Shown: in pieces, positions 3,727 to 6,732 of the stretch
Layout of the letters: the number at the start of each line of letters is the position of its first letter
Numbering within the stretch: the stretch's first letter is position 1
Assembly (NCBI GenBank): GCA_016872215.1
Contig: VHAX01000001.1
Location: 1-54,003 of the forward strand
Direction: 5' to 3'
DNA from: Sphingomonadales bacterium
GTDB taxonomy: Bacteria; Bacteroidota; Bacteroidia; UBA7662
Length of the DNA: 54,003 nt
Notes under the pieces: model-generated
Database searches by the model: none
What the model saw: the letters and a program-made list of their open reading frames with translations, nothing else
Told to the model about the DNA's origin: nothing
Translations under genes and position numbers: made by a program

Positions 3727-4830
3727 ATGAGCTGGTTCCCACACCCTATACCGGTTGTATATGTGGACGAACTAGAGGTGGGTCGAAATACGTTTCGAAG
3801 CCATTTTCAGGACAATTTCGAGCTGTTTACCTGCTCAGATGCTTCACTGGCTCTTCAAGTGCTGCAAAATCGTCCTGGATGTGTGCTGGTTGCCCTGCAG
3901 CGCATGAGCAAAGCCTCGGGAATAGAACTCATTTCGGAAGTGCAATTGAAATTCCCGTCCAGCCCCTGCATTCTGCTGCATACTGAAGCGGATATTGGTG
4001 TAATTGAAAAAAGTGCCCAATCAGCGGGAATTTACCGGGCCCTTCGTACGCCCTATTCTCCAATGGTACTGCGTGCTTGTATGGAGCGTGCCTATGAAAT
4101 TTCGTGGAACAACCTTCAAATGAGTGCCATGAGGCATGAATTGGATGTGTATCGCAGAGAGCGTGATCTGCTGTCCTACAAATTGGAAACGGAATTTTTT
4201 GAGCCAATCGGACATTTAGCAGCCATATGCTCAACGGTGGTTCACAGCCTTGATACGGCGCCTGCCCATGAACTCGCAGATTTTTTGGGGCGGCGATTGT
4301 CTATGATTGGATCGGGGCGGGAACGGTTTCGAGATTTGTACCGGGGCAGCCGGGTCGAATTACTGGTCGAAAACCTAAATGCGGAAGAAATGCTGCACGA
4401 ATTAAAAAGCTCCGTTTGCCAGGTCTATGGGTTGGACCATGGGCAGATCCGAATTGAGATCAAAGGTGATGGCGTTTGGGTGGGCGACTGCGAGAAGATT
4501 AAATTGATCCTGGTACAACTACTAAACAATGCTGCATGTAGTTCCGACAGTTCCGATGAACCACTTAAAATTGCACTTTTAGCCAGTATTCAACCCGACT
4601 TTGTGAAGTTGGAAGTAGCCGATAACGGCAGGGGCATCGCATTGCCTCAGCAGCAACGGGTGTTTCGTATGTTTGAAAGCAGTCCATCGGGTAGTGGATC
4701 CGGGATGGGCTTGTTTATCTTGCGTGAAACTGTTCGCCAACTGGGGGGAGATGTCCGTCTGGAAAGCGAGGTGGGCATCGGGTCGGTTTTTCAAATCCGA
4801 ATCCCCAATCTTGTGTCGTGCCAGCATTGA
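3727..4830 (+). CDS. degenerate receiver plus histidine-kinase-like ATPase protein
   Basis: Two-domain signalling protein of 367 residues, function unknown. Residues 8-125 resemble a response-regulator receiver (VVYVDELEVGR, SGIELI, LRTPYSP). The phospho-accepting Asp is replaced by Leu57 (VLVALQRM) and the conserved Lys by Thr108. A helical DHp-like segment follows, in which the HDLKEP-type H-box reads TEFFEP, so the phospho-accepting His is Thr155. The HATPase_c domain looks intact: N-box LLNNAACSS, G1 DNGRGI, F-box VFRMFES, G2 GSGMGLFI, then VGIGSVFQIRIP. It has no signal peptide or membrane segment and should be cytoplasmic. I chose the ATG at 3727 because 3706 lies inside the promoter box. 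It is followed by htpG on the same strand after 84 bp. It may be a pseudokinase scaffold or ATP sensor; classical phosphotransfer looks impossible. Confidence 0.8.
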   Translation: MSWFPHPIPVVYVDELEVGRNTFRSHFQDNFELFTCSDASLALQVLQNRPGCVLVALQRMSKASGIELISEVQLKFPSSPCILLHTEADIGVIEKSAQSAGIYRALRTPYSPMVLRACMERAYEISWNNLQMSAMRHELDVYRRERDLLSYKLETEFFEPIGHLAAICSTVVHSLDTAPAHELADFLGRRLSMIGSGRERFRDLYRGSRVELLVENLNAEEMLHELKSSVCQVYGLDHGQIRIEIKGDGVWVGDCEKIKLILVQLLNNAACSSDSSDEPLKIALLASIQPDFVKLEVADNGRGIALPQQQRVFRMFESSPSGSGSGMGLFILRETVRQLGGDVRLESEVGIGSVFQIRIPNLVSCQH

Positions 4831-4877
4831 TATGCGGTGTAGAATGCGACAAAATGTCAGTCAGTCAGAGGTGGCAA

Positions 4878-4885
4878 TATAGTTG
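4878..4885 (+). promoter_or_regulatory. possible -7 element for htpG
   Basis: TATAGTTG matches TAnnTTTG at seven of eight informative or free positions. It lies 29 nt before the preferred htpG ATG at 4915, and its presence argues against the upstream in-frame ATG at 4888. No clear -33 box and no heat-shock operator were recognised. Confidence 0.3.
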
Positions 4886-4914
4886 CTATGCGGACTCACA
4901 AAAAACCAACATTC

Positions 4915-6732
4915 ATGAAAAAAAAAGGACATATATCTGTCAACACGGGAAACATATTCCCCATCATCAAAAAATCGCTTTATTCCAATCAGGAAGTATT
5001 TCTCAGAGAACTTGTCAGCAATGCCGTCGACGCTACACAGAAGTTGAACACCTTAGCCTCTATTGGCGAATTCAAAGGTGAAACGGGTGACACCACTATA
5101 CGGGTAAAAATCGATAAAGACAAGAAAACCATCACCATTTCGGACCGCGGAATCGGGATGACAGGCGAGGAAATTGACAAATACATCAACCAGATTGCCT
5201 TCTCGGGAGCCACCGAATTCATGGAACAGTACCGTGATAAGACAGACGGCAACATTATCGGGGCCTTTGGCCTCGGCTTTTACTCCGCTTTTATGGTAGC
5301 TGATTCTGTGGAAATCGAAAGTCTTTCCTTAAAGGAAGGCGCTACACCTGTACGTTGGACCTGCGACGGCAGCACTGAATTTGAAATAGGTGCGGGCAGT
5401 CGCACCGAAAGGGGTTCAGACGTAATCCTGCATGTGGGTGAAGACGCTGCTGATTATTTGGAAACCTGGAAATTGCGCGAGATCCTTCGGAAATACTGTC
5501 GCTTTTTGCCGGTGCCCATTCAATTGGATGAAGAGGTGATCAACTCCACAGTTCCGCTGTGGACCAAAAAGCCTGCTGAACTCACCGATGAGGAGTACCA
5601 GAAGTTCTACGAAGAGCTGTATCCCCTTGCCGAGAAACCATTGTTTCACATTCACCTCAATGTGGATTACCCCTTTAATTTGACGGGTATCCTCTATTTT
5701 CCCAAACTCAAGGCAGACTTTGAACCGAGCCGCAACAAAATCCAGTTGTATAGCCGGCAAGTTTTCATCACCGATTCGGTAGAAGACATCGTGCCGGATT
5801 ACCTGCGCCTGTTGCACGGAGTACTGGATTCCCCCGACATTCCGCTGAATGTTTCCAGAAGCTTTTTGCAGACAGATTCGAATGTGCGCAAAATCAACAG
5901 TCACATCAGCAAAAAAGTGGCCGACAAACTAGCGGAAATTTATCGGGAAGACGCGGAGGGTTTCCGTGGAAAATGGGAGCATCTGGAACTATTCGTTAAA
6001 TATGGGATGATCAGCGACGAGAAATTCGGTGAGCGATCCGCAGGATTTTGTCAGTATACCAGCACCAGCGGCGAGCAGCGGGATTGGGATTCCTACCAGA
6101 AGCATGTGGAGGTGAACCAACGCGACAAAGACGGGAATCTGGTGGTACTCTACACTTCAGACCCCGAATTGCAGCACTCTTATGTACAGGCAGCCATCCG
6201 CCGGGGCTATGATGTATTGAAAATGGGCAATGTAATCGACAGCCATTTCCTGAACCACCAGGAATCGAAACTGGAAAAAGTGCGTTTTAAGCGGGTTGAT
6301 TCGGAACCCATAGAGCAGCTGATTCCAAAAGAGCAAAACACCCCTTCTGTGCTTTCAGAAGTGCAGGAATCCGAAATTAAAACATTGTTTACCCAAACTG
6401 TGGGTGACGAAAAGCGAAAAGTAACTACGGCCGCATTATCGGCCGATGATTTGCCGGTGATGATTACCCGAAACGAGTTTATGCGCCGCATGAATGACAT
6501 GGCGGCCACGGGTGGACATCCATTCGGCATGGGACAAATGCCTGAGACCTATGATGTGGTACTGAACACGGCTCACCCTCATTTGCTGCACATTGCCAGA
6601 TGTAAAAATCCCGAAAAAAAACAATCACTTGTCAGACACAGCTACGACCTTGCCCTACTTGCGCAGGGCATGCTCAGGGGAGAAGAATTGAGCCGATTTA
6701 TGGAGCGGAGTCTATCTTTGGTTGATGGTTGA
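4915..6732 (+). CDS. htpG: molecular chaperone HtpG (Hsp90)
   Basis: ATP-dependent cytosolic chaperone that folds and remodels client proteins. 605 residues, in the family range. The N-terminal ATPase domain shows the Hsp90 signatures SNQEVFLRELVSNAVDA (catalytic Glu and ATP-binding Asn), DRGIGMTGEEID and GAFGLGFYSAFMV. The middle domain contains SRSFLQTDSNVRKI, and the C-terminal dimerisation region follows. The start at 4915 (MKKKGHISV) matches bacterial HtpG N termini. An in-frame ATG nine codons upstream is possible but overlaps a weak promoter box. It is probably its own transcription unit, between the kinase-like gene and purH. Confidence 0.97.
   Translation: MKKKGHISVNTGNIFPIIKKSLYSNQEVFLRELVSNAVDATQKLNTLASIGEFKGETGDTTIRVKIDKDKKTITISDRGIGMTGEEIDKYINQIAFSGATEFMEQYRDKTDGNIIGAFGLGFYSAFMVADSVEIESLSLKEGATPVRWTCDGSTEFEIGAGSRTERGSDVILHVGEDAADYLETWKLREILRKYCRFLPVPIQLDEEVINSTVPLWTKKPAELTDEEYQKFYEELYPLAEKPLFHIHLNVDYPFNLTGILYFPKLKADFEPSRNKIQLYSRQVFITDSVEDIVPDYLRLLHGVLDSPDIPLNVSRSFLQTDSNVRKINSHISKKVADKLAEIYREDAEGFRGKWEHLELFVKYGMISDEKFGERSAGFCQYTSTSGEQRDWDSYQKHVEVNQRDKDGNLVVLYTSDPELQHSYVQAAIRRGYDVLKMGNVIDSHFLNHQESKLEKVRFKRVDSEPIEQLIPKEQNTPSVLSEVQESEIKTLFTQTVGDEKRKVTTAALSADDLPVMITRNEFMRRMNDMAATGGHPFGMGQMPETYDVVLNTAHPHLLHIARCKNPEKKQSLVRHSYDLALLAQGMLRGEELSRFMERSLSLVDG

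Follow-up and report, generated by a model that had tools for sequence, protein, structure and literature searches.

Can a histidine kinase that carries its own receiver domain be retained by a lineage after both its receiver and its kinase core have lost the residues needed for phosphotransfer, and what would such a protein be kept for? The window considered here (the whole stretch of DNA that was analysed, 54,003 nucleotides) raises this question at 3727..4830 of the + strand, where a gene with an ATG start and no internal stop encodes a doubly inactive 367-aa protein in the domain order receiver (REC), DHp, CA. A preliminary description of the locus had proposed a pseudo two-component protein that binds ATP and signals without phosphotransfer upstream of the chaperone gene htpG.

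Domain order and relation to canonical kinases

The CA domain (residues 254-360; 4486..4806, + strand) is readily recognized by Pfam as HATPase_c, at 63.7 bits versus a cut-off of 26.4, and most of its conserved ATP-site residues are kept. The pseudo-receiver domain (residues 11-116; 3757..4074, +) reaches only 21.8 bits, below the cut-off of 30.2, and the HisKA model of Pfam has no match in the protein, whereas a canonical orthologue from a sister genus scores 67.6 bits for the receiver and 40.4 bits for HisKA. The DHp region, with approximate bounds at residues 123-225 (4093..4401, +), was delimited by alignment with canonical orthologues. Sequence matches in the PDB, obtained with phmmer, are histidine kinases and receivers, including LvrB (8vc9) over residues 40-360. 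An AlphaFold model of low confidence (mean pLDDT 51, built from a four-row alignment) has the (beta-alpha) order of a receiver; its strands beta3 (53-58), beta4 (81-85) and beta5 (103-107) place residues 57, 85 and 108 at the positions of the receiver D, T and K. By domain order and descent, the protein belongs with the LvrB-type REC-controlled histidine kinases, as seen from the full-length alignment and from the gene order it has in common with canonical members.

Loss of the phosphotransfer residues

Residues were compared with 46 homologues from outside the genus: 45 full-length matches from 395 genomes and the copy of genome G010. Altogether 92 of the 395 genomes matched; the 45 were those that matched at full length with the receiver covered, and the matches left out were mainly to DHp-CA or to a receiver alone. 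In this alignment, Leu57 (codon 3895..3897, +) occupies the column of the phospho-acceptor Asp, which is D in 46/46 homologues; Thr108 (4048..4050, +) stands in place of the receiver Lys (K in 45/46) and Thr155 (4189..4191, +) in place of the H-box His (H in 45/46), with the H-box residues Glu156 and Pro160 retained. These three replacements, all named in the preliminary description, are thus borne out. The alignment reveals two additional losses that had been overlooked there: His85 (3979..3981, +) at the receiver Thr/Ser, which is Thr or Ser in 45 of the 46, and Glu15 in place of the second Asp of the acidic pair, again Asp in 45. None of the 46 homologues outside the genus lacks both the Asp and the His.

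Within the source genus, the changes are largely the same in all copies. The first residue of the acidic pair is retained and the second is Glu in 4/4 genomes, Thr/Ser has become His and Lys has become Thr in 4/4, and the H-box His has become Thr in all three complete copies, which retain Glu and Pro of the H box; the receiver-only fragment (L005) was left out of all His and CA counts. Of the three residues whose conservation among close homologues was to be checked, Thr108 (4/4) and Thr155 (3/3) are accordingly conserved and Leu57 is not, since that position is Leu in this genome and His in the three congeners. No DHp-region His is conserved across the three complete genus copies, which makes autophosphorylation on a different His, the objection named to the reading without phosphotransfer, unlikely.

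The 367-aa protein therefore lacks the H-box acceptor His of a HisKA histidine kinase, the acidic pair, Asp, Thr/Ser and Lys of a PF00072 receiver (in their places are D-E, Leu/His, His and Thr) and the phosphorylatable Asp and His of an LvrB-type protein. It has receiver homology without phosphotransfer residues, the definition of a pseudo-receiver in passages of PMC12632262, and histidine-kinase homology with the acceptor His missing, as in DivL-like pseudo-histidine kinases.

The family outside the genus holds two further deviating members. One (L105, in G303) is an independent pseudo-histidine kinase with His replaced by Asn, N box and G2 lost, and receiver Asp and Lys intact; the other (L104, in G290) is without the receiver acidic pair and Thr and keeps Asp, Lys and the kinase His.

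The ATP site

The ATP-binding motifs had been described as intact. This is correct for most of the N, G1, F and G2 motifs in the source copy, where N268, D299, G301, G303, F313, G324, G326 and G328 are kept. It does not hold for the first N-box Asn, which none of the three complete copies retains (Gln in the source copy, Glu in the congeners), and two congeners have an eroded G2: G324, its first Gly, is Ala in G001 and G003, i.e., in two of the three complete copies.

When conserved columns were defined on 43 canonical homologues (the 46 without L104, L105 and L106), all three complete genus copies kept 14/18 columns in the CA domain (D254, N268, D299, G301, G303, I304, F313, F316, G326, G328, L329, S347, G352 and P360), compared with 4/18 in the receiver and 3/8 in DHp; the difference between CA and REC has a Fisher p of 0.002. 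The changed CA columns are the first N-box Asn (Gln/Glu), R318 (Ser in the source copy), K333 (Arg) and G324 (Ala in G001 and G003). The alignment and these retention counts support the description of a protein without phosphotransfer residues that retains most of its nucleotide-binding domain. Judged from these residues, the protein likely binds ATP, although binding may be weak or gone given the loss of the N-box Asn and, in two copies, of the G2 Gly.

Locus history and sister genera

A canonical REC-HK with normal Asp, Lys and His sits at the same locus in all four genomes of the sister genera g3 and g4. The block truA-acat / REC-HK / htpG-purH-mreB recurs in g3 and g4 and, within the reach of their contigs, in the three congeners. 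The canonical gene lies upstream of htpG in G005, G006, G008 and G010, in G005 with an additional receiver gene between; in the latter three genomes, acat and truA are a few kb off on the other side, and purH and mreB lie beyond htpG. Upstream of the REC-HK, the ORFs read in G005 and G006 include genes for a 7TMR-DISM histidine kinase, for a ThiF-like protein and for a protein of 244-246 aa, whose G006 copy has no Pfam match. True copies of the 7TMR kinase and the ThiF-like protein stand beside the REC-HK in 4/4 sister-genus genomes and in none of the four source-genus and nine g2 genomes, where searches returned just HATPase-domain or weak 7TMR-type matches for the kinase and one partial 30% match, in G001, for the ThiF-like protein. 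In g2, acat is directly beside htpG in all eight genomes with an htpG locus, and no trace of a REC-HK was seen there in any of the eight. Since the 7TMR and ThiF-like genes are missing and the g2 locus is empty, the operon has been lost; g2 no longer has the REC-HK either, and the source genus kept an altered form.

The 367-aa protein thus has its orthologue, a canonical REC-controlled histidine kinase, at the corresponding place in the sister genera, an assignment that rests on synteny because the long stem of the genus leaves the tree silent. The unchanged position among its neighbours makes a paralogue or a horizontal replacement unlikely, even if, with so long a stem, the tree is no proof of this.

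In two loci of the sister genera (L035 and L036, at about 8.2-14.5 kb), the REC-HK operon comprises a ThiF-like protein resembling the Rv1355c family, the 244-246-aa protein (without Pfam match in L036) and the 7TMR-DISM kinase, alongside a divergent single receiver protein. The REC-HK / ThiF-like / 7TMR-DISM unit is conserved in Bacteroidota; we know of no function for it.

Distribution and constraint

A search of 149 related genomes for homologues of the 367-aa protein yielded full-length homologues in the source genus and across the class. In an order sample of 21 genomes, the altered protein occurs in the four source-genus genomes and the canonical one in four g3/g4 genomes and in G018, from another family; nine g2 genomes and three genomes of family f2 have no match at E 1e-20. 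Two further genus copies (G001 and G003) are complete, with 62% identity, and that of G002 is cut by the contig end after the receiver. A scan of a contig collection with one protein as query found no relative, but the three-row genus alignment did recover the three congeners, on the Bacteroidota MAG contigs SYHW01000063, VGGT01000100 and CAIVQI010000315.

In a maximum-likelihood tree, from which L005 and L106 were left out, the genus forms one clade (support 100/100), whose stem has 3.7 changes per column, followed by 0.02-0.44 within the genus; the stem length is rough, as the genus rows were flagged for unusual composition, and its extent leaves the tree silent on the exact position of the clade. 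This shape suggests fast change along the stem and then constraint within the genus. For the closest pair, G003/G001, on which the estimates rest because remoter pairs are at or near silent-site saturation, dN/dS (Nei-Gojobori) is 0.172 for the whole gene and 0.175, 0.145 and 0.217 for REC, DHp and CA; the neighbouring truA, acat and htpG have 0.164, 0.111 and 0.068. At the level of codons, these values demonstrate purifying selection on all three domains within the genus.

The preliminary description had held that normal Asp and His in close relatives would mark a decaying single copy. Such relatives do exist outside the genus; within it, the losses are common to four genomes, and a dN/dS of 0.17, close to that of truA, speaks for a constrained gene, so that the decay reading fails. 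The suggestion of a small Bacteroidota family holds in the form of one genus under purifying selection.

The htpG neighbour and its promoter

The downstream gene htpG (4915..6732, +) is a neighbour through inherited gene order, as identified from its ORF and synteny; 84 bases separate the stop codon of the kinase-like gene from the likely htpG start on the same strand. The gap holds a predicted htpG promoter (4848..4886, +), consisting of the palindrome GACAAAATGTCA at 4848-4859 and a sigma54-like -24/-12 element at 4872-4886, recognized from sequence pattern and conservation. Weight is placed on the conservation because the -24/-12 pattern alone is expected 0.74 times by chance in the window of 54,003 nt. 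Palindrome and sigma54-like element can be read by eye upstream of htpG in 17/17 genomes; a strict script pattern matched in 7/17. Across the order, the palindrome TGNCANNNTGNCA followed by a sigma54-like TGGCA-N6-TTG occurs upstream of htpG and grpE: in 13 genomes, a pattern search returned 23 matches, of which 20 lie by htpG or grpE (one htpG promoter counted twice), versus two for the reversed control pattern. The pattern likely marks a sigma54/NtrC-type chaperone regulon, and sigma54 control of chaperones in Bacteroidota has been reported before, in passages of PMC12316311. The predicted element in the gap thus indicates that htpG is under its own control.

That the 367-aa protein regulates htpG as an operon partner could be read from the common strand, the short gap and an adjacency which, to answer the check proposed in the preliminary description, is conserved across genera. 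The conservation extends, however, to the entire block beyond the pair, and htpG has its own conserved promoter also where no REC-HK adjoins it (G017, G018 and g2). Because of these two facts, the pairing is taken as gene order and not as evidence of function; a functional link as the main reading is rejected, and regulation of htpG appears highly improbable.

Possible function

Taken together, the genome comparisons demonstrate, as far as sequence can, that the protein descends from a REC-controlled kinase, that every acceptor is gone, that the gene is constrained and that the CA domain is better kept. Because all phosphotransfer residues are gone and yet the genus keeps the gene intact, the protein probably works by binding and not by chemistry. 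The best explanation, to which we assign a probability of about 0.5, is that it is a doubly inactive pseudo-histidine kinase derived in place from an LvrB-type REC-HK and maintained for a DivL-type role in binding. The ancestor was a canonical LvrB-type REC-controlled histidine kinase (REC-DHp-CA), standing behind a 7TMR-DISM sensor kinase as in the sister genera. In the source-genus lineage, that sensor kinase was lost along with the other genes of its operon, and the leftover REC-HK gave up every phosphotransfer residue along the fast-changing stem; that the losses came in this order is presumptive. By analogy with DivL, the present protein may be a nucleotide-binding dimer without phosphate transfer, which could regulate another signalling protein through docking by its receiver and/or DHp-CA surface. 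Candidate partners would come from the few two-component proteins that the genome still has, among them PorX, an NtrC-like regulator, PhoB-like and CopR-like pairs, and a LuxR-type regulator with a 7TMR kinase. Against this reading, the gene context names no partner and nine g2 genomes live without the gene. A bolder and rather doubtful variant is that both acceptors were given up together after the loss of the sensor and that the protein was refitted at the genus level to a conformation-only nucleotide-binding switch, with Thr155-Glu156 possibly a new Thr phosphorylation site; if true, a natural His-Asp relay would have turned into a phosphate-free (or Thr-based) switch.

The good preservation of the CA domain, the best-kept part of the protein, could also suit a nucleotide-driven switch outside two-component signalling, in which CA binds or hydrolyses ATP and receiver-DHp acts on a different kind of target, as in GHKL proteins elsewhere. 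A congener CA domain even passes the Pfam cut-offs of HATPase_c_2 (28.5 versus 27.4) and HATPase_c_5 (24.0 versus 22.0), but HATPase_c_2 gives almost that score (25.8) with the canonical sister protein as well, so that this is no new trait, and with G2 eroded in two relatives such a switch seems unlikely. Chemistry might also have moved rather than ceased: Ser/Thr kinases with a histidine-kinase fold exist (BCKDK/PDHK, SpoIIAB/RsbW), and Thr155-Glu156 is present in 3/3 genus copies along with the H-box Glu and Pro, as a CA domain that phosphorylates this Thr would have it. The missing first N-box Asn and a receiver without acceptor nevertheless render a Thr kinase very improbable.

A functionless relic, left by the loss of the sensor kinase and now disappearing, would be in keeping with the vanished operon, the deletion of the gene in g2 and the small genomes of about 2 Mb, which have 5-7 receiver matches versus 10-41 in g3 and g4. 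It is hard to reconcile with a frame open in all copies, with a dN/dS in the closest pair that is similar across domains and to truA, with substitutions that are shared, not scattered, and with conserved blocks such as an invariant run in the receiver, so that we regard it as quite unlikely.

Relation to known systems

LvrB, the REC-HK prototype, resembles the 367-aa protein in its REC-DHp-CA order and a length of about 370-380 aa (passages of PMC13269768), as well as in the phmmer match noted above, and the canonical sister proteins stand behind a separate sensor kinase as LvrB does behind LvrA according to the same passages. In contrast, LvrB as portrayed there has D56 and H161, is phosphorylated and autophosphorylates, whereas the protein studied here is without acceptors and has lost its upstream kinase. 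With the Caulobacter pseudo-histidine kinase DivL, in what passages of PMC4211667 state, it has in common a replaced H-box His (Tyr550 in DivL, Thr155 here) and a retained CA domain; DivL differs in having PAS domains and all N, G1, F and G2 boxes and in binding DivK~P, while here the input is a pseudo-receiver and the N box is partly changed. ShkA, CikA and FrzS have pseudo-receivers with a receiver fold and no phosphotransfer residues, but those of ShkA and CikA act on a kinase that is still active (passages of PMC12632262), and here the kinase core is without its own His too.

Pseudo-receivers and pseudo-histidine kinases are thus each known, their origin and role being mostly open by the account in parts of PMC12632262, where 2.0% of receivers are given as without Asp and 0.9% of HisKA domains as without His. 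A protein with both losses is expected to be rare: multiplying these published rates gives about 2 in 10,000 under independence, a product and not a measured value. The earlier statement that no such system is described stands insofar as no single REC-HK with both losses was found in the literature covered, which lay mostly outside subscription journals; it does not stand for either half of the protein, given DivL and the described pseudo-receivers. The new part, not found described, is a REC-HK in which both losses have become fixed in one genus while sister genera retain its canonical ancestral form at that locus. With the states before and after at one locus and the loss of the sensor kinase documented, the change from enzyme to binding protein becomes directly testable.

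Minor observations

Antisense ORFs of the gene were taken as chance, their open stretches differing in length among the four copies. Alone among the genus copies, that of G001 (L004) has a four-residue insertion in the receiver beta3-alpha3 loop, a repeat of the adjacent residues (ASGIASG). In the first 60 aligned columns (about 3727-3906 of the window), the codons of the source genome and G003 are identical at 29/48 shared residues, more than later in the gene (p 0.02), perhaps reflecting a constraint on DNA or RNA.
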